From positions 33,646,792 through 33,710,791 of the forward strand of contig NC_049980.1 of the NCBI RefSeq assembly GCF_000003815.2: DNA of 64,000 nt. The letters run 5' to 3'. This DNA is from Branchiostoma floridae (taxonomy: Eukaryota; Chordata; Leptocardii; Amphioxiformes; Branchiostomatidae). Both the position numbers and the translations under genes were made by a program. This document shows, piece after piece, positions 20,630 to 61,174 of this stretch (its first letter is position 1; each line of letters opens with the position of its first letter). The notes below the pieces were generated by a model, which did not search any database, was not told the DNA's origin, and saw nothing but the letters and a program-made list of their open reading frames with translations.

Positions 20630-20715
20630 TAGCCTGATTAAATCTCGCTTATAGCAGCCTGCCCAACATCCACCAGTTACAGCCCTGGACAGCAGAGTTT
20701 GTGCCACACAGACTA
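20630..20715. mobile_element. 86-bp micro-element, TAGCCTG...CAGACTA, ~9-bp TSD
   Basis: It starts with TAGCCTGATTAAATCTCGC and ends with CACAGACTA. Flanks are CAGAACTGC (20621-20629) and CAGAACTTC (20716-20724), matching at 8 of 9. It is the shortest of three copies. The others (48135-48240 and 60929-61174) have perfect 9-bp TSDs. TSDs of 9 bp point to a Mutator-like (MULE) transposase, although the inverted ends are only 7 bp. Confidence 0.85.
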
Positions 20716-21045
20716 CAGAACTTCAAGTTTTGATGTTCTTTTTTAATGCAAGTTTTTGACTTAGACTTTGACTTGAGTGGCTTTTTCAAAAGCTATGTAA
20801 CAACGACAAGCTGGGAAAGGAATTTTCATGATTACGCCTGACAGCAAACTGATATGACCCTTGATACGCGTTTGGCAAAAACCGAAGGTGAACAACTAGT
20901 CAAGCAAACCTAGTTATCGCACAGTTGTATGGCCTTACCTACCTACAAAAGAGTGTCCTGAGGCAGTACAAAGGTAAAGGTTAGGGTGAATAATTCTGTA
21001 CATTCATTTATTTTTCTGTGATAGAGATTGTAGTACATTAGTATT
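20716..21045. other. No gene seen
   Basis: Unique sequence between two mobile elements. Confidence 0.45.
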
Positions 21046-21405
21046 CAGGGCTCGAAATTCATTTTTGGGATTAGGTGCACTAGTGCACCCAGCTTAAAAA
21101 TTGGGTGCACCAACAAATTTTTGGGTGCACCACTTAAATTTAAGTAGAATGTCAAAAAAACTAACAACAAAACTTAGTTACAAGCTATCAAATTCACAAA
21201 CAAGTAACATGGCAGACATTTTTATTATCTTCCTAACACTTAGATGTCAAGAATATGATGTATACTAGTATACTTGATATTTTTCCATACATAAACCTAA
21301 GAAAAATATTTGGGTGCACCAGTGCACCCACTGAAAGAAAATTGGGTGCACAGTTCTAATTTTGGGTGCACCTGGGTGCACAAAACCCCAGTATTTCTAG
21401 CCCTG
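21046..21405. mobile_element. 360-bp MITE, GCTCGAAAT termini, GGTGCACC words, 5-bp TSD
   Basis: The ends are CAGGGCTCGAAATTC and GTATTTCTAGCCCTG. GTATT flanks both sides (21041-21045 and 21406-21410), a perfect 5-bp TSD. Both subterminal regions are built from TGGGTGCACC-type words. Other pieces of this subfamily are at 12690-12746 and 45290-45330. No coding capacity. A hAT-like group with 5-bp TSDs (hAT5 of Repbase) would fit. Confidence 0.88.
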
Positions 21406-21574
21406 GTATTGCATTTGAAACACACCCTGGTGTTAACGAATTCAAATGTGAAGGTAAACCCATGACATCCTCGGTGTGTAATGCTGTACATTGATTTCTT
21501 TTCAGGTAGAAATTAGAAAGGAAGTTTTTGCTGCATTTTAGCATTCAATGTGGTTGAAACAAAATCTGCAGTAC

Positions 21575-22370
21575 AGTAGTAGATTACATTGGAAACACAA
21601 ATTTATGGTGTTAGGAATTCGCAGAAGAAAGGCCACTACAAAAGCTACGCAAGTTAAACCACCGAGTACATTTCAAGATCAACGGTAGCAAGCCTTGTCC
21701 TACCTGTTGAACACCCCATGTACCTTACCGACCAATTTAAAGCCCCTTTGTGCAGGGGAATCACCCAGATTGTCATCTGTGCAAGTACATGGTGTAAACA
21801 TAGGAGACATGCATGTAACAATGAACAGTGATAAACGTTATTGTACAAAGAGGCTACTCGAATACCAGTGTTGGCTATTTCTAGTTAGGTTGGAAACACA
21901 TTTGCAATGATGCAAATTCTCGGTGGAGAGGCCACTGTGAAAAACTACGCCGTGAATATTTCAAGTTTAACAGTAGCACGCCTTGTCCTACCAGTCGAAC
22001 ACCCCATGTACCTTACCGACCAATTGAAAGCCCCTTTGTGCAGGGGAATCACCCAGATTGACATCTGTGCAAGTACATGGTGTAAACATAGGATACATGC
22101 ATGTAACAATGAACAGTGATAAACATTGTAACATTGTACAAAGACTGAAAGAGACTATTCGAATACCAGTGTTAGCTATATCTAGTAAGGTTGGAAACAC
22201 ATTTGCAGTGTTACAAATTCCCAGTGGAGAGGCCACTGTGAAAACAACGCCGTGAATATTTCAAGTTTAACGGTAGCACGCCTTGTCCTACCAGTCGTGT
22301 ACCTTACCGACCAATTTAAAGCCCCTTTGTGCGAGGGAATCACCCAGATTGTCATCTGCGCTGTAATGTC
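21575..22370. repeat. Tandem array, three copies with ~290-bp period
   Basis: TACCTTACCGACCAATT starts at 21721, 22009 and 22300 (periods 288 and 291). Each copy carries TGGAAACACA, AGGCCACT, TTTCAAG and CACCCAGATTG in order. Copy 3 has a small deletion before TACCTTACC. Frames across the copies do not share a reading frame. Confidence 0.9.
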
Positions 22371-22459
22371 GGCTGATTGTTTAGAAGATTCCGTAATGCC
22401 GAGTGTCAAGGCTTGTGCCATGATGCGTCACGCCTTGATCCCTTGTAGGCATGTCCCTA

Positions 22460-22533
22460 CAGGGCTGGAAATACCACCTGCATATACAGGTTAGTGCAGG
22501 TAAAATTGGAGCTGTGCAGGTATTTCTGGTGTC
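22460..22533 (+). mobile_element. Left part of an ACCTGCAC-word MITE, cut by a gap
   Basis: CAGGGCTGGAAATACC, then CCTGCATATACAGG, GTGCAGGTA and GTGCAGGTATTTCTGGTGTC. It matches the left side of the element at 52611-52953 closely. The 100-N gap begins inside it, so its right end cannot be seen. Confidence 0.8.
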
Positions 22534-22633
22534 NNNNNNNNNNNNNNNNNNNNNNNNNNNNNNNNNNNNNNNNNNNNNNNNNNNNNNNNNNNNNNNNNNN
22601 NNNNNNNNNNNNNNNNNNNNNNNNNNNNNNNNN
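22534..22633. other. Assembly gap (100 N)
   Basis: Exactly 100 N, inside a MITE copy. Confidence 0.99.
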
Positions 22634-23744
22634 CGACGCCAAGGCGGGGAAATCCACTACATGTCCTCTCCATTCACTGTTATTGCGCTATTGAAAACAC
22701 AAGTTCAACAGGTATATTGCCTGAGCGGTATTGGTAACTGTTGAAGGCTTTATGTAAAGCCATAGGCAGGTTTTGTTGTATTTCAGACAACTTTGTCATG
22801 TTATTATATAAAGTTTAGGTGTGTGAATTATTGGGCTTACAAATACAAAAGTTTCCTTTGGAAAATACACAAATTGTAGTCATTTTTCTTCTGCCTCTGA
22901 CAAATGGTCTTTTACTAGTTGGAGAGTTTTATCAAAAGGGAATCGCAGCAAGGATTTTGAGTGAGTGACTGAGTGAGTGAGTGAATCGCAACACATAATT
23001 TCTAGTTGATGACATTTCGTGCAATCGAGTTCATAATGTTTCGCAATCTGACGTTCCAAGTGGTAATGAAGTTGAATGCTGAAGGAATAAATGTACAAAT
23101 AGATTGTGAAGTCATAAGCAATTAGACAACTGTTGGCTTTTAATACAATATAGTACCCTTGCCTCTTCCCTTTGACCTCAGCGAAAGCGGCCTGCAGGCC
23201 TAAGTACTTATTCTGCTTGCGTTTCAATGATTGAAATGTTGATCTTAAAGTACAAACTACCCAAAGTACCAATTCTACGTCCAGTTTTATTCTTTTGTAT
23301 AACGAAATGGCTGAGAATCCCGTGGCCTCCCCAAAATATACAGTAGGTACCGTACAATGTTTGGGTCAGTAACCAGCATATTGCTGAAAAAATTCATCCG
23401 GGGGTTTAAAACGCAGGAAATTGGATTTCGTGTGTACTACCGGATCTTCACGTCGGTAATCCATTTTTGTGTGTGTACCTTTGTCCGGGGCAATATGCTG
23501 GCTCCACTCCGCTATTGGATTTAAACTCGATTTTGGTGTCCAAACAGTTAAGTCTGCAATCAAATAGGAGTGTTATCTGGTAATCTCGGAGGGACGCTTT
23601 ACGGATGGAAGTCATCATGTATTTTTATTGGGGCTCTGCTGGTAACCCCTTCTTTGCGATTCGTCAAAATCAAATCCTTAGTCTATCTCTGGATCGTAAA
23701 AGATTTTATTTTAGCATAATATTACTGGTAATGGTGAGGTAGCA
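22634..23744. other. No gene seen; small GAGT microsatellite
   Basis: GAGTGAGTGACTGAGTGAGT run at about 22958-22984. The minus-strand frame 22880-23272 (130 codons) overlaps it and has no domain. A relic of LINE-tail sequence (GACCTCAGCGAAAGCGGCC) lies near 23175-23195. Confidence 0.4.
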
Positions 23745-23956
23745 AAGTTATCAATTTTATGGTGAGGAGATTTCGAAAATGTAGGGTTAAAAGTTGGCAT
23801 TCAAGTACACTTTTTTTGCCAGTTTTTCATATTTGATCACGTATTGTTCCATAAGTAAACTTTAGCAAAGTACCACTATGTGAGTTGAAAATTAGTGTCA
23901 TGCTCCTCATTTAGTGTTGTGGCCCATTTTGATAGATTGTACTAGCTAGAACCCTG
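23745..23956. mobile_element. Relic of the CTAGAACCCTG MITE family
   Basis: It ends in CTAGCTAGAACCCTG at 23956 and carries GGGTTAAAAGTTGGCA and GAAAATTAGTG words. All of these also occur in the complete element at 58424-58777. The left terminus is not preserved. A lone right terminus of the family is at 50515-50529. Confidence 0.7.
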
Positions 23957-24842
23957 TGTACGAGATAGCACAGGAAAAAATGGTGTATGTTTAGTTCAAA
24001 ATGTATACTTGAGAAAGATGAAGTGAACAAAAATCATCTTTGCCACAACACTAGGCAAAACTGTCACCAATTTTATGTTTCTCTATAGAGAAATTCTCAA
24101 ACAACCTCACCTAGCCATATTATTTATCTGTCCTTCACGACTCAACAGTTTGTGGTATCGTTTTCCGTTCATTTCTTTGCCACTCATGTATCATTACATC
24201 CATAGTAAGTGGCAATGGAGGAGTGATGAAGTAAAAAATATATCTTTTGTTGGAGTTAGGTGCTATTATGCGAGTTAGGTGCTATTATGTAAGTTATACC
24301 ACCCGGTAGGTTGTTGTTATTCTTTGTACCATTCTAATGAAAAGTGGACTTGCAGTCGGGTGGAAGTAAGTGCCTTAAACGCTAAGTCAGAGCACCTGCT
24401 CTCAGAAATAACTCGCTTCCTCTGATATTACCTCATGCCAATCAAGGATGGAAAATATCTGGATTGAAGATATATTTTTAATGTTTAAAATTTTAAAAAA
24501 ACGTAGGAATGATTGGAATATTCCATTAACAAAATTGTGGGTGTCAATTGTTTAAAAGATTCTATTGGACTCTCTGTCAAGTAATACACCTGACATTTTG
24601 GAAATTTGACAATTTTTACACAAGATCATAAGTGTGTATGTTTATTTTTAGAGTATTGAACTGTCAAAGTTTTGGACATTCAAAATCTAAAGGTAAACGA
24701 ATACATAGTAACATAAGTTTGTCCTGCAGCTTACACATATTCTTATCATTTTGGATTCACCATAATGGTTGATTAGGCCTAGGAAAAAAAATGTTGTGTT
24801 TCCTGTTTCAGCCCTGAAAAAATTAGGGTCGGTAGGTAGGGA
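23957..24842. other. No gene seen
   Basis: AT-rich unique sequence. Its last ~70 bp (AGGAAAAAAAATGTTGTG, then TTAGGGTCGGTAGGTAGGG) look like the end of a dispersed repeat running into the gap, but there is only one copy here. Confidence 0.4.
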
Positions 24843-24942
24843 NNNNNNNNNNNNNNNNNNNNNNNNNNNNNNNNNNNNNNNNNNNNNNNNNNNNNNNNNN
24901 NNNNNNNNNNNNNNNNNNNNNNNNNNNNNNNNNNNNNNNNNN
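24843..24942. other. Assembly gap (100 N)
   Basis: Exactly 100 N, directly beside an array of MITE-terminus repeats. Confidence 0.99.
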
Positions 24943-24943
24943 C

Positions 24944-25195
24944 TAAGTCTGAGTGCTACAGTTATACATTCATGATCACCTATAACTCACAAGAGGGTCT
25001 GTATGGGGGGTTTACCATCAGCAGTTACAAGAGGGTCTACATGGAGGGGTTTCTAATGGCATAATAAGTCTGAGTGCTGCAGTTATATATTTATGTTCTC
25101 CTATAACTTACAAGAGGGTCCGAATGGGGAGTTACCATCAGAAGTTACAAGAGGGTCTGCATGGGGGGTTACCATCAGCACTCTGTGCTTAACTA
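24944..25195. repeat. 121-bp duplication built from a MITE terminus
   Basis: TAAGTCTGAGTGCT begins at 24944 and 25065. GAGGGTCTGCATGGGGGG, or variants, occurs four times (24993, 25031, 25114, 25151). This word is the inward-reading right terminus of the MITE at 4894-5083. The array may extend into the adjacent gap. Confidence 0.8.
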
Positions 25196-26546
25196 AGGAA
25201 GCCAGGGGCTACATATTACATATACATTGAACTTACCAGACGTATCCTTACACTATACATAGAATGCATCACTGACACGTTACATAAGATTTGAGTCTGG
25301 CTACAAATCACATAGAGTTAAAACTGCTTATTATGCAAAAGGGCTTGCAGGCCACCCTACAAGACTTTGTCGGATCCGATGTTTATACAAAGAGTATTGC
25401 CTGGCACCTAGCGTGTTCTTTTATGTGTACATGACAAAAGCGTGATCTCTTTCAATCGTTCAATAGGATATGTACAAAGTGACTTCTATGCAGACGTGTA
25501 CAGTACATGGGGTTTTAGTTGTTGTCAGATGGTTATCTGTTGAAAGTTTGCTTTTAACATTTTCGTGTGTTGTACAGCAAAATCATAGCAGTAAGTTCAT
25601 CAATAGAAAAGACACTGAAATCCACGATTAGCCTCACCTGATTGTGATAAGATATTCCAGATTTTCTCATGTTTAGTCTTTACTGTTTAGTACGTAAAAT
25701 TTCAAGATTTATTTTTTATGTCCTATTCTGTTGTTGGTAATTGAGCGCATAAAAGGCATTGTACTTTTGCTACTTCACTAAACTTTGTTCTCACCTATAT
25801 TCTTCTTTAGATAAGTTCTAGCTTTATATATCTATAAACTCAGCTGTCTTCTAGTCTCTGCTGCAGTCTTCGAATGGGGCTGTTTTTTATTTGGAGGGGG
25901 GTGGTTGGTTTGCGATTTCCAAATTTGGCTAGTTCTCTTGTGTGCCGGGAAAGGGAGTTTGCCTAGGAAGGGAGTTTCACCCCGTCTGGAAGTCTGTCTC
26001 CAACCACAAACACCCTTCCCCCCCCCCTTTCCTCGGGTGAGTGGAGATCTCCCAACCTAATTTTGTAGGATTTGGCCCCATTGTCGGCAGCTGAAATCCC
26101 CTGGTCTTGCCTGGGGCTACACTTCGCTGCCCGCTTTTGTTCGCTCGGCGAGGATGGAAAACATCCTCTGAAGAACTGAAATTCTCAGGTAGGCCTTTTC
26201 ATTCGGCTTTTGCATCATTTCTAGGTTAGCACATAGAGTCCACAGACAATTGTTGCATACAGTACAATATGGTACAATGCTGGAGCCAAGTTATACTGTG
26301 GTCAGGTGTGTAACTCATTGATTGTGTACTGTATAGACTAAAGTTATTTGCTGGACAAGGATTGAAAATCTTAGCTTGAGCATGTACATTGCGTACAAGT
26401 AGACAAAAATTCAGGTAATCTAGGAAAAGCATACCGCGATTCCCGTGAACCCTAGGGTCGCCATTCGCTGACGCAAACGAGTCATGAATGAACAGCAACA
26501 ACTGCAGCGTGGCCGGTACGGGCCCTAAGTTGTGGAGGAGCATTAA
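25196..26546. other. No gene seen; GC-rich patch 25.9-26.2 kb
   Basis: Unique sequence. A GC-rich repeat-free patch at about 25900-26160 includes a C-run near 26012-26025. The minus-strand frame 26226-26612 (128 codons) has no domain I recognise and overlaps the next MITE. Confidence 0.4.
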
Positions 26547-27099
26547 CAGGGCTCGAAATACTTTCTTCTGTCTAGCTGTACTGGAGCAGGTAACTTTTGA
26601 AATTACCTGCACCAGAGAAATATTACCTTTATATACCCCAAATGTGGATAAAACAACCTTTTAAACATACTTTGTACACATGTTAACTAACAAAGTAGGT
26701 AAGGGAATACTGTACTGCCTTGTTGTATAGAAACCAAACGTGATAAAAAGTTACATGTTGATGTACCCACAATGATTACAGTATCAGTGATCATCATCAC
26801 TGTTCTCCTCATGATCAGCTGGATCCAAGGGACCCTCCCTTAAAAGAATATTGTATTTGGTGCAGCACAGGTATTTGCAAGTTTTATTGAGAAAAATCAC
26901 ACTGGAAGCTGTTCATTTGCCATCTTTCTTATTTATTGCATCTCTTGCTTGCGGCATTACAACCAGTACAGCAAAGAAGTATCCACTTCACAATTATACA
27001 CAGTGCATCAACCTAGTGCAGGTTAGACACCAGAAATACCTGCACAGCCCAACTTTTACCTGCACTAACCTGCACATGCAGGTGGTATTTGGAGCCCTG
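26547..27099 (-). mobile_element. 553-bp MITE, GCTCGAAATAC termini, ACCTGCAC words
   Basis: The ends are CAGGGCTCGAAATACT and GGTATTTGGAGCCCTG. It is inverted relative to the copy at 52611-52953: its left part (TTACCTGCACCAGA) matches that element's right side, and its right part (ACCTGCACATGCAGGT) matches that element's left side. No clear TSD remains (AGCATTAA left, AGTGTGTA right). Non-coding. Confidence 0.85.
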
Positions 27100-27340
27100 A
27101 GTGTGTAGTACACAGGCATTCCTCGCGTCTACATTCTTTCACCTTCCTTGCGAGGAGAGTATGTGGGGTGAAGACGTGGAGTCCTTTCTTCTCCGGCTTA
27201 GGGGAATGTGGGTCCTCTCCGGACACAACATTCCCGGTTTGTTGACAGGAGATTCTCATGTCTTGTTTATCTGTTTGTGAGGACCATGATGATGTTCTGT
27301 CTGGTGGTAGCCGGGACAAGCACAGAAGTGGCATCGCCTC

Positions 27341-27445
27341 CAGGGCTCGAAATACTTTTTTCTACATACCTGCATGGTGCAGGCGACATTGAAAATTACC
27401 TGCACCAGACAAATTTTACCTGTATCACTCTGAATTTAGAAAGTA
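27341..27445 (-). mobile_element. Truncated ACCTGCAC-word MITE
   Basis: CAGGGCTCGAAATACT, then ATTACCTGCACCAGACAAAT. Same orientation as 26547-27099. The right portion is missing, and the sequence passes into a LINE 3' end at about 27470. Confidence 0.8.
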
Positions 27446-27469
27446 TGGACCATACTAAATGATCCCTCA

Positions 27470-27547
27470 TGACCTCAATGAAAAGTGGCTTGCAGGCCAA
27501 TTTGAGCTTTTCATGAATAAATTAAGGTTCAAATAAACAAACAAACA
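27470..27547 (+). mobile_element. LINE 3' end, 5'-truncated
   Basis: GACCTCAATGAAAAGTGGCT, then TTTGAGCTTTTCATGAATAA, then AAATAAACAAACAAACA. Same family as the minus-strand copy at 13775-13846. Confidence 0.7.
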
Positions 27548-28699
27548 TAACATAATAGGCTTACATGTGTGACTGTACTGTTGTACACTAGCATACAGCA
27601 TGCTCTTGTAATATCAGAGTATCAGACAGAACCTTAAAACTTTTGTTGCATTGCTTGTTCAAAACTTTGGAGTTTGCTATAGAATTCCATATTCAAGCTC
27701 TAAACAGTTGCAGGGAGTTTTGTAATTGTAATTGTGTTTTCCTGACATTTACCTTTATGTTACGTTTCTGTGTACGTATGTACGTTTTGGTACACCACTG
27801 CACCTATTCGCAATAATGATTTTCCAACCGTGTGCATAGTTAGTTCTTGTGTGCACCTCTTTCATGGCTTTCCCCACAAGGCAGACCCCATCCCTGAAAA
27901 GGTGGTGCTCTCCATGTGCTCAGATTACATGATGCCTGTTACCTGGTGCAGGAACAATAGGGTTAGACCTTATCAGTTGTTCCATCTCTGCTGCTTCCAT
28001 GTCCTCATGTGGATGAACTCAGTCGACCTGTCTGTCAGGATGTTTCAATGTATTATAGTGGGCTTTTCTACTCTTATAACACATGGTTCAAGACATTTCA
28101 TGCAGTGAAATTTAGAATGTTTGATAATCATATGGTCCAAGTGGCAATGAAATGGTTTGCTGATATATGTATATAGATGTAAAATAAGATAAATGTGAAT
28201 TAAAGAAAGCAGACTTGAAGTTGTAAATTTGAAGAAAAAAAATGTGAAAATTTTTGAAGAAAATCACTTGTGGATAGGTGGTCACTAGACAGGATTTGTA
28301 AAGCTGTGGTGTCAGTGGGAAAAATTAAGAGATCATCAGAAGATGGTCCATACTTACGTAGAGGTGTTCACTCTATTTGTGTAATAGTCTCATATTGGTC
28401 TCATTTTGGATAGAAATAAATTCTTAGTCTTACCAAGCATGTTGTTCTTATTGTACATTTGCCCTGGGCCTGCAGTACCTGTGCTGTACTGATAGGGGGC
28501 ATTGTTGGCAAACGCACCATGTTCAGAACACTGAATCTCAGAGAAAGCTCGAGTTTTCTCATATACAGATTTCTAGTTTGTATGGTCCCTTTGGCGTAAT
28601 CCTGCAATCTATCATGTTAGAAATGGTATGAAATTAAGTTGTTGTCTAGTCATGTTGTCTTTCAACAGTTTTTTTCTACAAAATGAAAAGTATTGGATG
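27548..28699. other. No gene seen
   Basis: Unique sequence. The plus frame 27770-28108 (112 codons) is Cys- and His-rich but shows no spaced zinc-finger pattern and no homologue that I recognise. Confidence 0.4.
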
Positions 28700-28870
28700 A
28701 TGAAGACTACTATTAGTAGTCAGTACAAACTGCATAAGAATGGACTGGAAGGTTTGACCCACTCACACTGGAATGGACAATTTCTCTTTTCCCTAACTTC
28801 AAGTCAGGTATTGCTCTCCTCAAACACAGGGCATCTGGTTTTGCGTCCCCATCGAAAGGGATGTCCTTAA
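28700..28870. repeat. Dispersed repeat, second copy at 39095-39275
   Basis: ACTGGAAGGTTTGACCCACT, then ACACTGG, TTCTCTTTT and TTGCTCTCCTCAAA. A similar series occurs at 39095-39275. The leading ACACACCAGTT(A/T)TGTACAGTAG part of that copy also occurs near 47380. The class is unknown. Confidence 0.6.
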
Positions 28871-29476
28871 CCCAAGCTTAGTGCTCATTTTTCCACAGAT
28901 TTAGTTTAGAAGCATGAAATTTTAATGGGAGGTTTCCATACTTGTTTCCCCCATCCTTTCATACATTCCTGTAATACTGTAAATGCTTATAAGTCTGTAG
29001 TGATTTAACTTCACCCTGTAGAGAAAATGGAGCGTCCGCAATGGTTTTGAGTTGGTGTAACTGTGTAAGTTCTTTGGTAGCGCATACTGTACAGGAATGG
29101 AAACTCCGGTGGTTTCAGTTTTGCGGTAAGGCTGTCACCGTAAAAACTGCGAACAGAAACCGTCGCAAAAATTTCAAGAAACTACAGTATAGCATCCTTT
29201 CCACAGTCCCCATTGGGACTCTGCACCCCCCCTGCATCATTTATGAGCCTCCCCTGAGGGATGATGTGGGGAGAGCTCACCTGGGGGAGGATACAGTGGA
29301 TGTGCACTTCTCTTCCCAGCTCCTTTGTTCTGGCCTCTCCTGGGAGCCATTTTTCACACTGATAATGACCTTGTGTGGCAGGGGTGTGGTCTGCTCTTCC
29401 CTTTGTCATATCAACTTGTCTTTGAAAAAATGACAGCTTTGGGACAGTCAGTATTTGACTGATTTTTACTTTATTC
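28871..29476. other. No gene seen
   Basis: The plus frame 29041-29433 (130 codons) spans GC-richer sequence but has no recognised motif. A GCGG/CCGT inverted tract near 29105-29170 resembles the TTTGCGGT dispersed repeats of the ~290-bp array. Confidence 0.35.
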
Positions 29477-29719
29477 CAGGGCTGTCTCTAGCTTGAAATG
29501 TTTTTCTATCCCACTCATTGTTTATGGAGCTCGTCATGTTAATTTGCCACCTTGAATCTGTCATTTTAAGCCTAACAAATAACATTGTCATCAATCTTGT
29601 GTCATGAAGGTTGGATTTTTGTGATGGACTGAGTAAAAATGTTTTTCTATCCCAACAAACAAACAAACAAACAAACAAACAAACAAACAAACAAGGAACT
29701 GGTCCTGGAGACAGCCCTT
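29477..29719. mobile_element. MITE, CAGGGCTGTCTC(T/C)AG termini, with AAAC microsatellite
   Basis: The left end is CAGGGCTGTCTCTAG and the right end is CTGGAGACAGCCCTT. Internal words CCCACTCATTGTTTATGGAG and GTTTTTCTATCCCA are shared with the copies at 30649-30957 and 34415-34635. An (AAAC)n run fills 29655-29694. No TSD is readable. The CAGGG end suggests hAT. Confidence 0.75.
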
Positions 29720-30041
29720 GGGTTGATGAAGCTATACAAGAAGCCTGATGAGGTATCGTACCTATCCTTTGGAGACATTTGTGATATAGCGGAAAAAGCC
29801 TTCATACACAAACAACAAATATTTATAGATGCTGAGAAAAACCTGTCGCTCTCCCGATATTACCTGTCATGAAATTACAAAATTTGATGTGTGAAGTGAG
29901 CCTTCGTGTAAGTTGTGTCAGGTTGTGATTTTAAGTTTAAAAGCTTTAGTGTAAGATATGTCAGGTTGTGATTTTAAGTTCGAGAGCTTTTTTTCGTTGC
30001 ACGATTTCATTATGAATAATTCACGCGGCGTGGGTTGAGTC
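29720..30041. other. No gene seen
   Basis: A 51-codon open stretch after the MITE (29697-29870) contains no domain. A near-duplicate word TCAGGTTGTGATTTTAAGTT occurs at 29918 and 29960. Confidence 0.4.
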
Positions 30042-30250
30042 AGGTGTGATGTGCGTAACTCGAGGTGTGAAGATTTACTGCCGATCCGCCCGTAATCCGA
30101 TCTCCCGGCCTTCCCCATCTGCACCTGGGAGCCGCTAACCGAATATCGGCGCGGCGCTTCTGGGGATACTGACGACATGTTATGGATGGAGCTACACACC
30201 TAATTGACACTGATTCGGTTTGGGGGAAGAGCGCGGTCCCTGCGTCGCTA
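30042..30250. promoter_or_regulatory. Candidate enhancer: paired T-box half-sites and TAATCC
   Basis: Exact T-box half-sites AGGTGTGA lie at 30042-30049 and 30063-30070, in direct orientation 21 bp apart. A TAATCC (Otx/Bicoid-type) core follows near 30093. The 30.0-30.3 kb block is repeat-free and CpG-richer than its neighbours. The motifs are short, so this is suggestive only. Confidence 0.35.
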
Positions 30251-30648
30251 TCAACTGCTGGTCCTTGTCCTCACTTCCATCTATTTTACTGTTCTCCTAT
30301 CGAATACCCATAATGTCTTCATCTTCTAAAATTAATTAAAGCATATCTCACGCTTGCGTCGTTTTTGTTTTCCCTGTTTTGTTGTGATTCTAATTTCGGT
30401 ACCTTGGTTATCTTCTGAAGGATGCGCACAGAGTTGATGAAATAAAGCCGTGACAAGGACAAATGACTCGGCGGTTTTAAGAAGCAGATTTTCTCGTCTG
30501 CTGTCGCACCAATCATTCTATCTGAGTATCTGTCTTGGCAGAATATGATTTTGTGGAGCCGGCTCATTTTTCAGTGTCAGAGGGTCTTTGTTTAATCTCC
30601 TTGTGTGATGCTACATCAGATGATACAGCATGTAAATAGAGCTGCGTT

Positions 30649-30957
30649 CAGGGCTGTCTTCAGCTTAAATTTTTTTTCATCCCACTCATTGTTTGAGAGC
30701 TAGCCTGGATACCATACCCCAACCTCAAAAATATCTTCCCTGCAAGATACATATTTATGATACTGGGGACTGGTAATCAGGCTATTTCAGAGCCCATGTT
30801 GTTGATTTTGCTGGTTAAATATGTCATATTATATTAGCTTGTGAAAGTACATTTTCAACAGTTTCATGTCATTTTTGGGACGGATGGGGTGAAATTTTTG
30901 TCTGTCCAAAGAAGCAAATTTCCATCCCGGGACGGACTAACGCGTCCTGGAAACTAC
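30649..30957. mobile_element. Second copy of the CAGGGCTGTCT MITE
   Basis: The left end is CAGGGCTGTCTTCAG. The right end is decayed (TCCTGGAAACTACCC). GTGAAAGTACATTTTCAACA and GGGACGG words are shared with the copy at 34415-34635. Confidence 0.7.
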
Positions 30958-34635: not shown

Positions 34636-34643
34636 CTCTGTTC

Positions 34644-44086: not shown

Positions 44087-44335
44087 GGGCATAGGTTCCC
44101 CGGCTGACCCCTAACCGGGGGCCCGCGGTGCCTCAAGTTCAACAAGTGAAAAAAATACACAATGGTATTTTAGACTTGGAACGAGGCAAGAAATGATTCA
44201 CACGAACAGTAAAGATGACATTGAAAATATACAATTGATATTTTCTAAAAAAAAATTGGGCATAGGTTCCCCGGCTGACCCCTAACCGGGCCACGGTGCC
44301 TCAAGTTCAACAAAAGTGAAAAAAATTATCCATAT
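44087..44335. repeat. Direct duplication, 171-bp period
   Basis: GGGCATAGGTTCCCCGGCTG starts at 44087 and 44258. Both copies continue to GGTGCCTCAAGTTCAACAA. The match covers about 75 bp. Confidence 0.9.
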
Positions 44336-47880: not shown

Positions 47881-48134
47881 TGGGTCTGCCTGCTCCAGCC
47901 TTGACCCCCTCTCACCTGCTGTAGATAATAGCCTCCCAGCCAGGTAAGTTTAGGCAGGCCAGCCAGATATATGCATGATAAGGAGGGTGTCCATATATTG
48001 CAATTTCACGCTCGGGTGGACCTGAATAGGGTAGTGGAGGAATAGGGGGCGACTCGCTTGCCTCAGTTGTTCGGCCCTTATGTGTCATTAAAACGTGTTT
48101 CTATGGCTTTTTTTATCTGTAGACTACAGGAACC

Positions 48135-48240
48135 TAGCCTGATTAAATCTCGCTTATAGCAGCCCGCCAAACATCCGCCGGCCACCTCGGGGAGGGGCCA
48201 GTTACAGCCCTGGACAGTGGAGTTTGTGTTACACAGACTA
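48135..48240. mobile_element. 106-bp micro-element, TAGCCTG...CAGACTA, perfect 9-bp TSD
   Basis: It starts TAGCCTGATTAAATCTCGC and ends ACACAGACTA. ACAGGAACC lies directly on both sides (48126-48134 and 48241-48249). Second of three copies in the window. Confidence 0.93.
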
Positions 48241-48373
48241 ACAGGAACCGGTTTGTCTATGCATTTTGACTAGCAATAACTTTCGATACTTTGGTAGTTA
48301 GGTTAAATGTAAGTTTATCAGTGATGGTAGTCAACATTATGTTACAATTTTAATACCCTATATCCGTACACAA

Positions 48374-48425: not shown

Positions 48426-48441
48426 TGAAATGACCCAAAGC

Positions 48442-50148: not shown

Positions 50149-50229
50149 ATGGGTACCCTTAGAGTGCCAAATTTTTTACCTTACATTTTCAAAATCTCTG
50201 CGTAAGGGCCAAGACCCCCCTTTCCATAG

Positions 50230-51620: not shown

Positions 51621-52010
51621 AACTTTTGGTGAAGAGGGGAGGTTAACTTTTGGTGAAGAGGGGAGGGTACTCCAGGTGTTGTTGGTTGTTGATCAGGGTA
51701 GGTGAAAAGTCACTTTGGATTTTTATGATCTCTTTTTTTGTTCAGAATTAGATGTTGAGGTCAGTACCACTAGGAAATAGGACCCCACCCCCTCCTTTAA
51801 GGCAAGTTATAACACTGTTATAGACAAGTGTTGTTGGTTGGTAGAACAGGGTAGGTAGAAAAGTCACTTTGGATTGTTATGATCTCTCTTTGTGGCTAGA
51901 TTTTGGGATCAGTACCACTGGGAAATAGGACCCCCTCTCCCCTCAGACAGCTTTCTTTCAAATTGCTGATTACAACTGTGTAGTAAGTTAATAACACTGT
52001 TATAGAGGCT
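51621..52010. repeat. Two nested direct duplications (24-bp and ~152-bp)
   Basis: AACTTTTGGTGAAGAGGGGA is repeated at 51621 and 51645. A larger repeat (GTGTTGTTGGTTG, AAAGTCACTTTGGAT, AAATAGGACCCC) starts at about 51679 and 51830. Confidence 0.8.
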
Positions 52011-52054
52011 TGAAAGTGGTCAAAATGTAACTGTGATGTAAGCTTGATTGTCGC

Positions 52055-52221
52055 CAGCTTTTGAATTTTCTGTACCGTCCATGTTGTTGATTTTCGTTGT
52101 TAAACTTAAACTTGTCATTTTTAACCTCATGCAAATACAACTTTCCTCACTTTCAAGTTGTGAACTTAAGAATTTTTCGAAAGGTGAGATGACATTTTTT
52201 TGGGTCCTGGAGACAGCCAAG
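52055..52221. mobile_element. Fourth copy (truncated) of the CAGGGCTGTCTCCAG MITE
   Basis: CCAGCTTTTGAATTTTCTGT at the left and GGGTCCTGGAGACAGCC at the right match the copy at 34415-34635. The outermost bases of both ends are lost. An isolated right terminus of the family, CTGGGGACAGCCCTG, is at 59341-59355. Confidence 0.6.
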
Positions 52222-52610
52222 GATGTCTTTTGCAGTCCCTTCAAACTAAGCAAAACATCAGTGCCGACATTTAGTTCTTTATGTACTCGGTTTGTGTAGC
52301 CATATAAATGCTAATGTGGTACTTGCAATCATAAATCTATCTAAGCAGACCTGTGCTGTAGGGAATATCCAGTATTCACCCAACTCAGTGTCATGTAATC
52401 AGACAAGCCTCCAGGTTAAAACAAGGGAATCCTCTGTTGTGCCCTTGAACTTGGAGAAAACAGGCGAGGGCAGCCCGTTGAGAGAGAGGCTACTGACAGA
52501 ACCGAATCGGGCTCCGCTTTTCAGCATGGCGGTTCTGGACTTGCTCAAGTCGCGAGCTCCTCCATGCTTGCTTGGTATCCATGGTTACTGCTGCTGTAGT
52601 TTTTGTCTTG
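52222..52610. other. No gene seen
   Basis: The 117-codon plus frame 52292-52645 runs into the next MITE and shows no domain. GTATCCATGGTTAC near 52575 is a weak X-box-like match. Confidence 0.4.
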
Positions 52611-52953
52611 CAGGGCTCAAAATACTACCTGCATATGCAGGTTAGTGCAGGTGAAATTGGAGCTGTGCAGGTATTTCTGGTGTCTACCTGCACCTAACCT
52701 GCACTGGTTCATGTACTGGGTTTTATACATAATGTCATATAATATAGCTGTATATGGATTGTTATTAGCTGCTTTGAATGTTACCACCTATAAAGTATAA
52801 AAGTAAAAAATAGCAGTGGTTCCTGAACAATTAAGTAGGATCCATACTTCTCAAATTCAGAGCGGTGCACGTAAAATTTGTCTGGTGCAGGTAATTTTCA
52901 ATGTTACCTGCACCAGTGATGAAGGTATGCAGAAATAAGTATTTCTAGCCCTG
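52611..52953 (+). mobile_element. 343-bp MITE, GCTCGAAATAC termini, ACCTGCAC words
   Basis: The ends are CAGGGCTCAAAATACT and AAGTATTTCTAGCCCTG. The words GCAGGT/ACCTGC occur in both orientations near each end, including CCTGCATATGCAGG. No TSD can be read because the right flank has been amplified into the 87-bp array. It is the best-preserved reference copy for 22460, 26547 and 27341. Confidence 0.9.
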
Positions 52954-53635
52954 ACTGTTGTAGTTGTCCTGGGTTGGGCGGTACACATTTGGCAGACTTG
53001 TAGGTGGTTAGTGGAAGACTGATAAGTATTTCGAGCCCTGACTGTTATAGTTGTCCTGGGTTGGGCGGTACAAGTTTGGCAGACTTGGAGGCGGTTAGTG
53101 GAATACTGATAAGTATTTCGAGCCCTGACTGTTGTAGTTGTCCTGGGTTGGGCGGTACAAGTTTGGCAGACTTGGAGGCGGTTAGTGGAATACTGATAAG
53201 TATTTCGAGCCCTGACTGTTATAGTTGTCCTGGGTTGGGCGGTACAAGTTTGGCAGACTTGGAGGCGGTTAGTGGAATACTGATAAGTATTTCGAGCCCT
53301 GACTGTTGTAGTTGTCCTGGGTTGGGCGGTACAAGTTTGGCAGACTTGGAGGCGGTTAGTGGAATACTGATAAGTATTTCGAGCCCTGACTGTTTAAGTT
53401 GTCCTGGGTTGGGCGGTACAAGTTTGGCAGACTTGGAGGCGGTTAGTGGAATACTGATAACTATTTCGAGCCCTGACTGTTGTAGTTGTCCTGGGTTGGG
53501 CGGAACAAGTTTGGCAGACTTGGAGGCGGTTAGTGGAATACTGATAAGTATTTCGAGCCCTGACTGTTGTAGTTGTCCTGGGTTGGGCGGTACAAGTTTG
53601 GCAGACTTGTAGGTGGTTAGTGGAATATTGACCAG
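52938..53635. repeat. 87-bp tandem array (about eight units) seeded by a MITE end
   Basis: (T/G)AGCCCTGACTGTT anchors at 52946, 53033, 53120, 53207, 53294, 53381, 53468 and 53555, exactly 87 bp apart. Each unit contains the last ~18 bp of the MITE (AAGTATTTCGAGCCCTG) plus ~69 bp of flank. Unit 1 uses the MITE's own right end. First and last units share TTGTAGGTGGTTAG where inner ones have TTGGAGGCGGTTAG. Since 87 is 29 codons, both strands stay open through the array (about 200 codons each). These frames are not genes. Confidence 0.97.
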
Positions 53636-53887
53636 GCCTGCTGTCATCAGCGCGCAGCAGCTATACCTGTCAGTCCTCCTGGAATCACCCATCCAGAAAC
53701 ATGGGGTAATTAACCTTGTCCTGGGTAAGTAGGAAACATTAGGGTGATCAGAGGGTTGGGAGCCTGTGGGACGTCTCACCAACACCTCAGTGGGATCCAG
53801 TAAAGCACTGGCTGGGGGTGTAAATCAGTGGTGGGGACATGGTACTGCAGCGGGGATGGAAATTACCAACCTAGGATTGTGGATTGA
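53636..53887. other. No gene seen
   Basis: Unique sequence before the LINE fragment. Confidence 0.4.
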
Positions 53888-54152
53888 CCGAGTTACCAAC
53901 CTAGGATTGATGTGTTCAAAAATTCGTATTTTCCCAGAACTATCGTAGAGTGGAACTTGTTATCACCAAGCACAGTAGGGGCATCTTCTCTGGATAGTTT
54001 TAAAGAACGCTTGCAGATAGATGTGCAAAAGTTAGGTGTGACGGATCGTTCAGTGTAATATAACCAGCTGCTGCTGCACCGCGTGCCTGCGAAGCTGGTG
54101 TGTTACGCCGAAGGGCGGTTATACCGGCTATATAGATACAGATACAGATACA
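53888..54152 (+). pseudogene. LINE fragment: RT ORF C-terminus, 3' UTR and (ATACAG) tail
   Basis: The plus frame from 53888 to the stop at 54056-54058 ends with NSYFPRTIVEWNLLSPSTVG followed by ASSLDSFKERLQ. This is the hallmark C-terminal segment of CR1/L2-type reverse-transcriptase proteins (F-P-R-T-I-x-x-W-N, then S-L-D-S-F-K). A stop just upstream (53885) and lack of the RT domain show 5' truncation. The 3' UTR (CTGCGAAGCTGGTGTGTTAC, CCGAAGGGCGGTTATACC) ends in ATACAGATACAGATACAG. A second copy of this 3' end is at 45741-45826. Confidence 0.88.
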
Positions 54153-55469
54153 GAAATACTGGGGGCATGTGGGCCAGAGACTGTGTAAAGAAGGTGTAGA
54201 GGATGAATACCATTTCAAAGAATGTCACAATGGTCTTTTTTATAGCCGTTGAAAAGATGAGGTCAAAGGACTCCAACTCCAATAAAAACCATCTATATAT
54301 GAAAGAAAACTCACCTTTGGCCCCAGCATTCTTCTGTATCCATCCACACAACTCAAATCTGTCCTTACGTCAACTAAACTGCTGAACTGAACAAATTTTT
54401 ACCAATATTTTTACCAAGAATTTTTATTCATTAGTTTTATGCTTTGGATTAAAACTTTTTTCTATACCGCTAAATCTTTAGGTTAGGTTCAACCCTAGAT
54501 AAGGACTTATGTCAATTGGAACTGCACTCTGCTTTCGGAAGAGACGTAAAAGTGGGTTTCCATTCTCAATGAAGTGCCTCAAGTACACTAATTTTGACTA
54601 AAGGAGAAAGGTGGCAAACCCTATAGAAATGTACCCTAATACTGAAACAGCAGGGCTAAAACTTGCGGCCCTATGTGTTGCAAGCATTTGAACGAAACAA
54701 CAAAAGAAGGCACCAGTGTACCTACTTTTCCTCAAAGCGAATTTCGAGCCCCGATCTCGGAGACCACCCGGAGAAATGTATACTTCAGTTCCACACAACA
54801 ACGTTAAGCCTTAGGAGAATCCTGGTTGTACAGAACACAGCAATGTCAATGGCAGAGTTTAATGTAAACATCGAAGTGCACCCATTTGTACTCCGGTAAT
54901 CCAGGCCCTACAGACCGGTCCGGTGTGTACGTTAGGGCTCTCGCTGTTGCTATGCAACCGGTTACAGACACGTTCACTCATGGGGAAGCAATGATGGGAT
55001 AAACAGTTTGGTGTAACTGTAAGACAACAACGGGCACGACACTTCTGGATGTTGATAGAATATCTCTTCAGGAATTCGATGTAACATTGGCTTAAGTGAT
55101 AACTAAATTTGAAATCCCATTTTTAATTGGGGTATAACAAAATCAAAAAAAGAAGGAAAACTAGACAAGAGAGACAAGAGTTTTTTTCACTGTTGTAATT
55201 TTTTTGTTACATTTCAAAGAACATGCAAGGTACACCCAAGTGTGTAGGGGCAGTGCACATCTCAATTTCTATAGCCCTCGGGCCACACATACCACAACAC
55301 AAGGGGGGATAGTTCATTGGTAGTGGGGTGTGTACTAACTGTTACCATAGTCATTGTCACAAGAGCTGAGTGCTAAGCAGAGAAAACAGTCTTTGATATA
55401 CGCAAGGCAAACCCTTTACCCCCTAGACTTTTCACTGGTTAACTCGAGCAGGTAGTGAGGACATATTTT
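54153..55469. other. No gene seen; weak RFX-like site
   Basis: Unique sequence. GTTGCTATGCAAC at 54946-54958 resembles an X-box with two mismatches and a shorter spacer. No domain-bearing frame. Confidence 0.4.
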
Positions 55470-55940
55470 GATTGGCTATAGCTATTAGGTACAGGAATAT
55501 TTAGTATATACTGTATCACTCAGTCACTCCTTGTTATGAGTATATGAAATTGGTAGTGATGTGCTTTCAGTTGCCATAGTCTTCCTCTCAAGAGAAGAGA
55601 AAGCAGTTACATCCTCACCCTCCCATGCTGCTTTAATGGTAAATTCAAGCTGGTAGAAGCTCATACAGTGGAAGCCGCTTAATTGCACACCCAATTTACC
55701 AGAGAATCCCGTGCAATTATCCGGCGTGTGCGATAATGCGAAGTTACCCAGTTGGACCGCACCGCCACGGGATTTAGGGATTCCGTGCAATTGACCGAAA
55801 TGTGCGTTTATCCGACGTGCAATTAACTGGCTTCCACTGTATTTCTATTGCCGTATTGGCTATATCTGAAAAGAACAGGAATACAGTGTATTTAGCATAT
55901 CAGTCAATCACTTCTAGTTGTGAGTATATGAAAACTTCAG
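55470..55940. repeat. ~80-bp direct duplication flanking a MITE
   Basis: ATTGGCTATA(G/T), ACAGGAATA, CAGTCA and TGAGTATATGAAA occur in the same order at about 55470-55560 and 55853-55935, with the 174-bp MITE between them. Confidence 0.65.
55666..55839. mobile_element. 174-bp TA-flanked MITE (pogo/Tc1-mariner type)
   Basis: The ends are CAGTGGAAGCCGCTTAATTG and, inward from the right, CAGTGGAAGCCAGTTAATTG, each followed by CAC (21 of 23 match). TA lies on both sides (55664-55665 and 55840-55841). CAGTGG ends with TA TSDs fit pogo/Tigger-like transposases. The minus frame 55524-55790 runs across it and is not a gene. Confidence 0.92.
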
Positions 55941-57279
55941 TCTTACATAGCTTTTACTGTACAGAAATGTTGTGCTACGCTATTTACAAAGGTAGTTAAC
56001 TGGATATGCAAAGCAGACAGCTACATGTATGTATATCAGACTCTTCCTTGTGGTCTGTCACTAATTAAGTTAATGAGGTTATCTTAATTGTTACAGGTGC
56101 AGCAGAGATTCTGGCAGAGTTGAATGATTTTCACTCGCTTCGGATGATTGGCAGTTCCTTCGGATGATTGACACCCCCTTCGGAGGGACCACCTCGACCT
56201 AGTGCTTCCTTGCATAAAGCGAGGGGTAGGTGAAGTTTGTTTGTTTATAAGTTTTTTGTTTGTTTGTTTGTTTGTTTTTTGTACTAGAGCCAGAAAGCAT
56301 CATGGAGGAGACAGAAATGTTGGCAAAATTTCTATACTCGGTCACAGAAGCTGGTTTTGTCTGTTGTCATCTTACGGCACAGTCAAATTCATCAATGTGA
56401 TATGATTTTGGTATTGTGGGATCTCCAACCTAGTCACGACAGACCCAACCGAGGACAGCCTCTTTCATAAGGAAGCTGCTGCATTTTGTACGACACTTGC
56501 ACTACTATCCAAAGAATGCTGACAGTTTGCAAGCATACTACGATCGTAAGACAAATTTGACCAGGTCCAATGTTTTTTAGATAGGCAGGTATGGTTTGAT
56601 TAATTCCTACATTTCTCCTCCATGGTGCTTACTGGCTTATTGGTCAATGGTTATAATTTTTGAGACTACAAGACTGGGATGTGCCACTGAGGAGATATGT
56701 ACTAGAAAAGGTTTAAAATGGGTGACTTGTACTTAGGTGCTAAATCCCATCTTCAGTACCTTAGATGTGAGATGTCAAAAAGTTCAAGGTGGTTGGTCTG
56801 AACTTGAGTTTGTATGATGTTTTTATTTAATTTGGCCTTTTTACCCCTTAAAAAATCAATTAGAAAACCCTATTAGGGACAGGAAATATTCTTATTCCGG
56901 GTTGTAAGAAGTTATCCCCATATTGGTAACAGATATTGGCACTTATATGAAAAGTATTTAGAAAATGTAAGGAAGGAAAAGGGAGAATTGATAGAAAATT
57001 TGTGTTTCAGTACCTTGACTGCAAACCTTTCTAACAAGCTATTAAAAAGTCAGGTTCAAGTCTCCTATTGGCACCTCCTAGTCGTGTTGCTTGCACTTAA
57101 AACTGTTTGTTTAATAAAAGTCGATACGATCCCTGTACAAATATTGACCAACACGCCAACATTATATTTTCCCTGCGCATGAAAGTTATTAAACTGTACC
57201 AATTAAGTGTACAATGGTTTGACTTGGGTTTTGACACCTGTCAAAGCAACATGGATTACATGGGATTCTGTAAATGTCA
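55941..57279. other. No gene seen; GTTT microsatellite
   Basis: (GTTT)n at about 56237-56281. CTTCGGATGATTG is repeated at about 56139-56171. The rest is AT-rich and unique. Confidence 0.45.
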
Positions 57280-58078
57280 CATTTTCTATGTCAAAGCATG
57301 AAACACTTGTAAACCTTTTTTTCATGTTTGTGTTTTAGTCACCAGTTCAGTGACTATCAAGTTGATTTGACAGAATCAAACCCCAAGTCTTGTCTTTTGA
57401 TTTTATACGTCTGCAATAAAATGGCCTGAAACTGTCCAGTAACATTTACGAAGCAAAATGCGACGTTTCGCCCAGCATTCAGCGCGCAAGAAAGCACGTT
57501 CATCTTGTTTTATTTACTTCTTCTTGAAACAGTTGATGAAAACTTGAATGAAGTCCAACTTCAAAGTTAAACTCTGTCAATGAATCCCAGATCCACTGTT
57601 GTTATCAATGATTTTGACACCGTCCCTACACAATGATTTGTTGTCAATCGGATGAGGCCACCCAATACCAGCTACACATTTTCTATGTCAAAACATGAAA
57701 CACTTTTAAACCTTTTACTTTTTTGTGTTTTAGTCACGAGTTCAGTGACTATCAAGTTGATTTGACAGAATCAAAGCCCAAGTCTTGTCTTTTGATTTTA
57801 TACGTCTGCAATAAAATGGCCCGAAACTGTCCAGTATTATTTACGAAGCAAAATGCGATGTTTTGCCCAGCATTCAGCGCACAAGAAAGTGCGTTCATCT
57901 TGTTTTCTTTACTTCTTCTTGCAACATTTGATAAAAAACTTGAATGAACACGTCCAAATTCAAAGTTAAACTCTGTCAATAAATCCCAGATCCACTGTTG
58001 TTGTCAAAGACTTTGACCCCATCCCTACACCATGATCTGTTGACAATCGGATGAGGCCACCCAATACCAGCTATATAT
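57280..58078. repeat. 395-bp direct duplication with CpG decay
   Basis: GTTGATTTGACAGAATCAAA starts at 57361 and 57756. Similarity covers the whole ~395 bp, from TTTCTATGTCAAA(G/A)CATGAA to CACCCAATACCAGCTA. In the middle stretch (GCGACGTTTCGCCC versus GCGATGTTTTGCCC, and so on) the differences are mostly at CpG sites. The frames in the two copies are not maintained. Confidence 0.93.
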
Positions 58079-58423
58079 GATTTGCTATGAGAAGCTGCTT
58101 GAATGACATGCCAACGAGTACTGAACATAACACGCCTAGACTCATGTCCAACATACCACGTGTCAAAGTTTGGACGCCCGTCCTAAATTGGGACATATCC
58201 CCTCTATATCGAGCGATATTTCAGAGAAAGGTGTACCCAAATGTAGCGGGGGCAGAAATTCTGGCGTGCCAGTAGTGACACGGATTTCCCCCATGGGAGT
58301 ACGTTTCACGTCGCATGATGTGTCGCACAGAAACGAAAATATCACATCACAGACAGACATACACCCTACCCGCTCAATCACACTCGCTTGTTTGTTGTCT
58401 GACTTAATACCACGTCCTCAGAC

Positions 58424-58777
58424 CAGGGTTCTAGCCAGGATTTCATTTTAGTGTAGTGGGAATGACATGGGAGTGAAGCGACCAATCAGGAGATTGGTGT
58501 CTTGGCCCTTCCATGGTGAGATTTTGAAAATGTAGAGTTAAAAGTTGGCACTCTGTTAACATCACATGTAATTTGAAGGATTTTTTGGTCAGTTTTGAAT
58601 GGCGTATCATCATTTTTTTATTGTTCACACATTGATTAGACATTGTTGAACGAGCAAATGATAGCAAAGCACCACTACACTAGTTGAAAATTAGTGCAGT
58701 GGCCCTTATTTCAGCATATAGGTCACAAATTTTAGCGTAGTGGCCCACTACACTAAAATGCGCTACCTAGAACCCTG
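58424..58777. mobile_element. 354-bp MITE, CAGGGTTCTAGCCAGG ends
   Basis: The left end is CAGGGTTCTAGCCAGG and the right end is CTACCTAGAACCCTG. Internal words AGTGTAGTGG and CCACTACACTA are inverted near the two ends. It sits between two ~70-bp direct repeats (about 58347-58418 and 58783-58850). No short TSD is evident. A relic is at 23745-23956 and a lone end at 50517-50529. Confidence 0.82.
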
Positions 58778-58850
58778 TTGAACACAGACATCCACCCTAC
58801 CCGCTCACTCACACTCGTCTGTTTGTTGTCTGGTTTAATACCACATCCCA

Positions 58851-59745
58851 GCCTGATCCTAACCTAAGAAATGCACAAGTCCAGATGTGTGTACTGGATG
58901 GGATGCATACCTGCCATCAGTGAGGGATGAATCCCCTTATGTTGGAGTGTGTTGGAGGATGCGACCAATGCGAGCTATTCATCCTGAGTAATTGGGGAGA
59001 GATCTCGATCGTTAGTCGTGCGAACGTTAGACACCGCACGGATCTAGAACATCCTGGAGGCTTGCCAGGTGTATATGGAGAACTGAACTGCACTGAATCA
59101 GTGGGGAAACAAGCAAACAGTTTGTGCCCATATTACTTCAGAATGATTTATGATGTCGTTTAGAGCTATTTTCAGAGCAAATATATATATTTTTGGCTCC
59201 CTGGTATTAAAAACAAATGACCTAAAATTTTGGTATGGGAGTTGTCTGGGAAAGTCCAATTTATAACTCCTATTAGTTACATGTAGACGTGTACTGTACT
59301 AAGCTTTTATTCAATACAAAACATTTAGTGATATCTAAAGCTGGGGACAGCCCTGTGCACCACACAAGAAAAGTAGAAGGAAGTTTGTCCAGGTTTTGTT
59401 TCATTTTTTTTTTTTGCATGATAGTTTGTGTTAGATGTGAAAATGATAATGCAAGAAGCTGAAAAGCAGCAAAAAACTCAGAAAGACCAGGTGACCTGAC
59501 CTATCCATGTTCAAAGTAGACATATAGGATATTGCAACAGACCTGACATAGCAAGAAAAACAAGACCATACCTGTAGTATGTCCAAGACAAAAGATGTAG
59601 AAATTGAACATTCTCCTGCAGTACCAAGGAAAGATGCGAGGATGCCAAAAATTTGCGTTGACCTTCATCTTCCCAAGACTTACCCACACACCAAATGCCA
59701 TCACAATATATCAAGGAGTTCTTCTGATATGCTGACCACAAACAT
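58851..59745. other. No gene seen
   Basis: Unique sequence apart from the isolated MITE terminus CTGGGGACAGCCCTG at 59341-59355 and a poly-T run near 59406. Confidence 0.45.
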
Positions 59746-59771
59746 GCACACACACACACACACACACATAC

Positions 59772-59809
<38 letters not shown>
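59746..59809. repeat. (CA)n microsatellite
   Basis: CA dinucleotide run with a few interspersed TACACA steps. Open frames on both strands across it (histidine/threonine on plus, cysteine/valine on minus) are low-complexity artefacts. Confidence 0.98.
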
Positions 59810-60928
59810 GCAGATAGTCAGACAGACCCAAAACAGTACCTCCATTTTCATGTAGGTAACAACTGCATCTGCGAGTTGCATGCCACTGACACTGGACATG
59901 CATGAACCCATGTGGAAAACCCTGTTGACATTTTGCCCATGTGTGACCAAGCTCTCTCCATGTGTGACCAGGGATGTTTTGTCTCACAAGTCCAAGTGTG
60001 GAAAGTGCCTCCAAGTCCGAATCAAATTAATTTTTTCTGCCATTTCCACCCTCTGTTTTCTCTGCCATGTGTGTGGGGTGGGGGTCTGCATGGTCCTTTG
60101 AGTACAGCGTAATCAGCTGAGTTAATTCCACTTAATTAGTAATTAATAAAACTTGTAACATATGTAACAGTGGGGTTCAAGCACTGCCAAACTGACCACA
60201 TGAAGCATAATCGATACATGCAAGAAAAAGCGCAATTGGCGCTGGAACTTAGCAATAAATCGCCAAATTTATTTACCTATTTCTGTATTCTTTCACCAGG
60301 GTAAGCTCCCATCAGTGACTAGCACTGCTTTTCAGGAACATACAAATAACACATACATACAATATAATACAATGTTTACATAGTACAACATATCACAAAA
60401 TAATTTGACTTCAAACGTGTTCACTGACTTTTAAGATTCAGCTCAGAGTGTTTATTGTACCCCCCCTCCCTCCATGCAGGCTCCCTATATATTATTAGTT
60501 TACCAGTTGTTGAGCCTCTAATATACAGCCATGTTGTGGCATGATGCGGTGTACGCAGACATGGTCATATTACACAAGTATTGTAAGCACGCACAAAAAC
60601 AGTGTCGCTTATTACACGAATAGATGGTTGCCATGCCTGGCATCGCTGCGATATCTGCGCCGGCTATCCGGCACAACTGTCCGGTAATAAAATCCCGTCC
60701 AACTCTAATCAAAACATGTCATTTGAGTAGATGTCTTGTAGGATTCCCGACGCAGGCGGCTGTAGATATGCCGTCGTGCAAGCTCCTTACGCCACCCCTG
60801 CCAGCATAGCCCGCATTGCAGGCATATTCGGAGCATTATGGGTGCTGAAACAGAATGGCTGGGCAGTTATGTGGCTAACCTGGGTGACAGACTCATGCGC
60901 TGCAAGATAACCGTTCGTCCAAGGAAGC
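59810..60928. other. No gene seen; LINE tail near 60.27-60.32 kb
   Basis: On the minus strand GAGCTTACCCTGGTGAAAG, then an AAATAGGTAAATAAAT tail (60268-60315), is a truncated LINE end related to 40720-40798. About 60620-60900 is CpG-richer and unique. Confidence 0.45.
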
Positions 60929-61174
60929 TAGCCTGATTAAAGCTCGCTTATAGCAGCCTTCCCAACATCCACCGGCCTCTGTGGGGAGGGGTCAGTTACA
61001 GCCTGATTAAATATTGCTTATAGCAGCTCGCCCAACATCCGCCGGCCTCTGTGGGGAGGGGTCAGTTACAGTCTGATTAAATCTCGCATGTAGCAGCCCG
61101 CCCAACATCCGCCGGCCTCTACGGGTAGGGTTCAGTTACAGCCCAGGACAGCAGAGGTTGTGTTACACAGACTA
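60929..61174. mobile_element. 246-bp micro-element, TAGCCTG...CAGACTA, perfect 9-bp TSD, internal triplication
   Basis: CAAGGAAGC lies on both sides (60920-60928 and 61175-61183). The 5' segment is present three times with an exact 70-bp period: C(C/T)TGATTAAA at 60932, 61002 and 61072, each followed by CCAACATCC(A/G)CCGGCCTCT. The sister copies at 20630 and 48135 have it once. The third unit then joins the common 3' part (ACAGCAGAG... to CAGACTA). Confidence 0.95.

Follow-up and report, generated by a model that had tools for sequence, protein, structure and literature searches.

We found that the 64 kb stretch of contig NC_049980.1 analysed here (the window) carries three copies of a very short element, designated A, B and C, which very probably form a family of non-autonomous cut-and-paste DNA transposons of 86 to 246 bp resembling miniature inverted-repeat transposable elements (MITEs). 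The copies share the ends TAGCCTG...CAGACTA, each starting with TAGCCTGATTAAA and finishing with ACACAGACTA, and each lies between the two halves of a 9-bp target-site duplication (TSD). Several of the features by which MITEs are recognized are present: inverted ends, a TSD of constant length, small size and the lack of a transposase gene. The end words of the family, given as a query pair, are TAGCCTGATTAAATCTCGC (left) and ACACAGACTA (right). The copies and their duplications are as follows.

20621 to 20629, plus strand: left TSD of copy A, CAGAACTGC.
20630 to 20715, plus strand: copy A, 86 bp, without 20 bp that B has and of which the units of C have a diverged version.
20716 to 20724, plus strand: right TSD of copy A, CAGAACTTC, 8/9 identical to the left.
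48126 to 48134, plus strand: left TSD of copy B, ACAGGAACC.
48135 to 48240, plus strand: copy B, 106 bp, made up of a single left module (bases 1-71) followed by a single right module (bases 72-106).
48241 to 48249, plus strand: right TSD of copy B, ACAGGAACC, 9/9 identical.
60920 to 60928, plus strand: left TSD of copy C, CAAGGAAGC.
60929 to 61174, plus strand: copy C, 246 bp, in which three left modules precede a single right module.
61175 to 61183, plus strand: right TSD of copy C, CAAGGAAGC, 9/9 identical.

Flank identity reached these values only at a length of 9; at the remaining lengths from 4 to 12 it did not exceed 60%. To judge these matches we used their frequency across the window: flanks agreeing at 8 or more of 9 positions at a spacing of 86 bp occur at 15 of 62,320 positions, perfect 9-bp matches at a spacing of 106 bp at nine of 62,228, and perfect matches at a spacing of 246 bp at 87 of 61,948, the last rate probably being raised by tandem arrays. 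The product of the three rates gives a joint chance of about 5e-11. The TSD sequences of A, B and C all differ, which indicates three separate insertions. In local alignments, similarity between copies ends at the proposed borders or continues for no more than 7 bases beyond them, where the TSDs are alike by chance. The ninth base of the TSD is C in all three copies, the match running over nine flank positions. A and B differ at 7 of 86 positions, and B differs from the third unit plus right module of C at 14 of 106, whereas the TSDs show only one mismatch in 27 positions.

The first-pass annotation had delimited the three elements and proposed that a small mobile element, generating 9-bp TSDs, had inserted independently at each site. 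Its coordinates, lengths, ends and flanks proved right when rechecked in the sequence, and the proposal is well supported by the matching of the flanks within copies and their difference between copies. It had also described inverted ends of 7 bp; these are present, but the inversion is not exact, as six of the seven bases agree (TAGCCTG versus TAGTCTG). Agreement across 20 bp is 12/20, and past base 7 it is only 6/13, which is weak on its own. What we add is the cause of the size differences, namely a 70-bp array in C and a 20-bp gap in A, and the palindromic character of the ends. As a side observation, the left flank of B (48120-48134) reads AGACTACAGGAACC, so that AGACT precedes the left TSD as AGACTA precedes the right one; this is perhaps due to chance or to an earlier insertion at the same spot.

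The threefold range in length has two internal sources, the repeated 70-bp units of C and the 20-bp gap in A. B is the simplest complete form: its left module stops at base 71, and its right module opens with AGCCCTGGACAG at base 72 and occupies the remainder of the element. In C, the left 70 bp counted from the second base of the element occur three times and are followed by the same right module, which accounts for the length of the copy (106 + 2 x 70 = 246). The features concerned are as follows.

60930 to 61139, plus strand: array of three 70-bp units (60930-60999, 61000-61069 and 61070-61139), the first of which starts at the second base of the element.
48180 to 48199, plus strand: 20-bp hairpin with sequence GGCCACCTCGGGGAGGGGCC in B, missing in A, recognized by comparison of the copies and by its fold.

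Unit borders in C fall at element positions 2, 72, 142 and 212, with AGYCTG at the first three and AGCCCAGG at the last. In B, the AGCCTG at base 2 recurs 70 bp further in as AGCCCTG at base 72; the period of the array in C is thus the spacing of this short repeat. This suggests that slippage or unequal exchange at AGCC(C)TG is the likely origin of the 70-bp units, whether B was expanded or C contracted. A has an extra AGCCTG at base 27 and no array. The 7/86 differences between A and B are counted with the 20 bp of GGCCACCTCGGGGAGGGGCC excluded, and the gap has four equivalent placements, all bounded by GCC. The 22 nt at 48179-48200 of B fold at -6.5 kcal/mol, a value that 5 of 200 shuffles also reach, in keeping with a hairpin prone to loss.

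Both ends of A and B are imperfect 19-bp palindromes around TAA (TGG in the loop of the right palindrome of A); the two ends have the same geometry and different sequences, and they are partly decayed in C. In B they read as follows.

48136 to 48154, plus strand: left terminal 19-bp imperfect palindrome, AGC-CT-GAT-TAA-ATC-TC-GCT.
48221 to 48239, minus strand: right terminal 19-bp imperfect palindrome, AGT-C-TGTG-TAA-CACA-A-ACT in the minus-strand reading.

In A and B, six of eight arm positions are paired at the left end and seven of eight at the right. A test in which one geometry was sought for both ends over offsets, arms and loops found the best geometry for B to have 9-base arms and one central base, with 7/9 and 8/9 positions paired. 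The score of B was reached by none of 4,000 cases in each of three nulls. Among 30,000 random 106-bp segments of the window, six reached the score of B and 28 that of A; since the three copies are related, these scores cannot be treated as independent.

From these features we infer an enzyme, its source and its binding to the ends. A transposase encoded elsewhere in the genome would act in trans, binding both ends and excising the element, and the dyad symmetry of the ends suggests contact by a dimeric transposase or one that recognizes two half-sites. The element would then be inserted at a target site opened by a cut staggered by 9 bp, repair of the gaps producing the TSD. Replication slippage or unequal exchange between AGCCTG (base 2) and AGCCCTG (base 72) would gain or lose 70-bp units and so could convert a B-like form into C, while slippage between the short GCC repeats that span the hairpin could give rise to A.

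Several results weigh against this interpretation. Only three copies are present, in a window of 64 kb, and neither a transposase nor a longer relative was seen there. No Pfam match was found in the 143 open frames scanned, out of 176 of at least 68 amino acids (a set that excludes frames with N or lying in five tandem arrays), nor in ten long open frames, eight of which are also among the 143. The palindrome test was devised after the fold had been seen. The changes in C break palindrome pairs, leaving 5 and 6 of 8 where A and B have 6 and 7, and the score of C was equalled by 201 of 30,000 random window segments. As single strands, both ends of B form weak hairpins (-0.9 and -1.8 kcal/mol), with 30 and 59 of 200 shuffles folding equally well, and those of C are weaker still (157 and 83 of 200). 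The folds of A and B as whole elements are like those of shuffled sequences (z from -0.34 to 0.70), and a foldback or RNA-structure explanation was dropped on this account. Given the weakness of the end hairpins, it is likelier that the ends are putative symmetric protein-binding sites than that they are extruded as hairpins.

A profile search of the window (HMMER filters off, E up to 10) returned five matches, all within A, B and C, and no fourth copy. We also scanned the whole window for perfect 9-bp repeats flanking 60 to 600 bp with at least 6/7 inverted terminal bases, twelve repeat regions being masked and low-complexity 9-mers excluded. Four pairs were recovered, B and C among them; the other two (3133-3279 and 44114-44275), with perfect 9-bp flanks and 6/7 inverted terminal bases, are both beside local repeats and may be artefacts. 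The window gave no Rfam match at gathering scores and no tRNA. Exact-pattern scans of viral, bacterial and archaeal contig collections yielded no copy, which says little given those sources, and a full-text literature search with six 12- to 14-base pieces of the element returned only two papers, whose titles concern microsatellites of plants and a lipase from a bacterium; these were taken as chance.

Which transposase moves the elements is a separate question. An enzyme of the Merlin, hAT or P superfamilies, or of an undescribed one, comes close to an even prospect. Short repeats with ends that we take to be hAT-like do occur in the window. hAT and P transposons produce 8-bp TSDs, however, whereas nine positions match here; a TSD of 8 bp, though conceivable, would need to be followed by a C in each of the right flanks by chance. 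For Merlin, the cited passages describe TSDs of 8 or 9 bp and, in some families, very divergent terminal inverted repeats (TIRs) or tandem repeats, but they also give GG as the termini, where the elements described here have TAGCC and TAGTC (PMC8101967).

The first-pass annotation had suggested a Mutator-like transposase. A Mutator-related enzyme is a reasonable guess because the TSD is 9 bp, and we regard it as a genuine possibility, though one somewhat below even. The part of the suggestion that stands is the fit in length: all three copies have a TSD of 9 bp, within the 8 to 11 bp of Mutator-like elements (MULEs), whose TIRs, in the sections of a survey cited here, are 14 to 500 bp long or, in some groups, absent (PMC6446971). 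The weaker part is the assignment itself, which was made from TSD length alone; Merlin, too, has TSDs of 8 or 9 bp, and no transposase was seen in the window, the scanned frames of which contain none of the MULE type. Where MULEs do have TIRs, these are at least 14 bp long, and the inverted ends found here agree at 6/7 bases and then at 12/20. Further, evidence for MULEs from chordates is limited in the cited part of the survey, whose authors were unable to confirm amphioxus MULEs that had been reported earlier (PMC6446971), a point that counts only if the host is amphioxus.

A relative of Rehavkus or of the foldback elements would join a 9-bp TSD to an internal minisatellite, and we consider it decidedly unlikely. 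Rehavkus, as described in part of the same survey, has 9-bp TSDs and a minisatellite ahead of its 3' TIR (PMC6446971), and the foldback element Tetris is described in the text cited as having TSDs of 8 to 10 bp and TIRs with tandem repeats (PMC4079207). The 70 bp x 3 minisatellite of C recalls both, but it is confined to the left end and to one of the three copies. Moreover, no copy matched its own reverse strand in blastn, so long inverted repeats are lacking, and the ends are only 12/20 identical. The survey passages in question list Rehavkus from arthropods and annelids only (PMC6446971).

A very improbable explanation is that the element is an introner, inserting in exons and removed from minus-strand transcripts as a GT...AG intron (TA|GTCTGT...AATCAG|GCTA). 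On that strand each of the three copies does have a GT starting at base 3, and its last AG directly precedes the final GCTA. The open frames across the three empty sites are ordinary, however, with 690, 1721 and 786 of 2,000 random sites having frames as long, and no Pfam domain was found in the scanned frames. As exons can be short, ordinary frames merely withhold support from the introner explanation, and it was dropped because they lend it none. Finally, although tandem arrays abound in the window (34 rows, some of which overlap), the prospect that a chance likeness or a dispersed minisatellite fragment has been mistaken for a mobile element is negligible in view of the joint chance of the three TSDs and the exact common ends.

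The window also contains other repeats. Short dispersed repeats at 22460-22533, 27016-27099 (minus strand) and 52611-52693 begin with CAGGGCT, two variable bases and AAATAC, the first of them adjoining a run of N. These starts resemble hAT-type ends; no paper came up when the literature was searched in full text for such ends. An 87-bp minisatellite at 52935-53631 starts inside the 19 bp that close a dispersed repeat (52830-52953) with a hAT-like end, and its unit consensus therefore includes ...AAGTATTTCGAGCCCTG. The stretch 52830-53631 holds a second array in the window that begins in a transposon-like end. A 64-bp minisatellite at 14045-14759 has 11 copies with 90% match, and the stretch across its start (14027-14076) is repeated at 17443-17492.

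If the palindromic ends recur in many copies, the family of small non-autonomous transposons proposed here would show the minimal DNA required by a eukaryotic cut-and-paste transposase (86 bp between TSDs) and the shape of its sites. Copy C, for its part, illustrates how a transposon end can seed a minisatellite inside one intact TSD pair. A fuller proposal holds that the element is near minimum size, that its palindromic transposase sites are equal in geometry and different in sequence, that an undescribed group of transposases with 9-bp TSDs moves it, and that a short direct repeat of its end, located 70 bp inside, allows a minisatellite to form; we think this unlikely. Apart from the minimal size and the minisatellite of C, the family is an ordinary one of small transposons.

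Like MITEs in general, the three copies are short and non-coding and have inverted ends and a TSD of constant length; A and B, at 86 and 106 bp, are at the small end of MITE sizes. They are unlike MITEs in general in that their inverted ends agree at only 6/7 bases and their lengths span a threefold range. The LanceletTn elements are MITEs of a lancelet (PMC5802833), a point in common if the host is one. Merlin, as far as the cited text describes it, shares the TSD of 8 or 9 bp and, in some families, divergent TIRs and tandem repeats (PMC8101967), but the present elements start with TAG, not GG. With Mutator-like elements, including Rehavkus, they have in common the 9-bp TSD and, in the case of Rehavkus, a minisatellite, according to the survey sections cited (PMC6446971); they differ in having no long TIR and no transposase seen in the window. 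The coral CMITEs are as small as A and B: in the passages cited, they are about 100 bp long, have a conserved interior and form tandem arrays that are put down to slippage, but have TTAA TSDs and TIRs of 13 to 14 bp, one family being tied to piggyBac (PMC2872659). The family described here differs from them in its 9-bp TSDs and in an array that lies within a single element, between one pair of TSDs.

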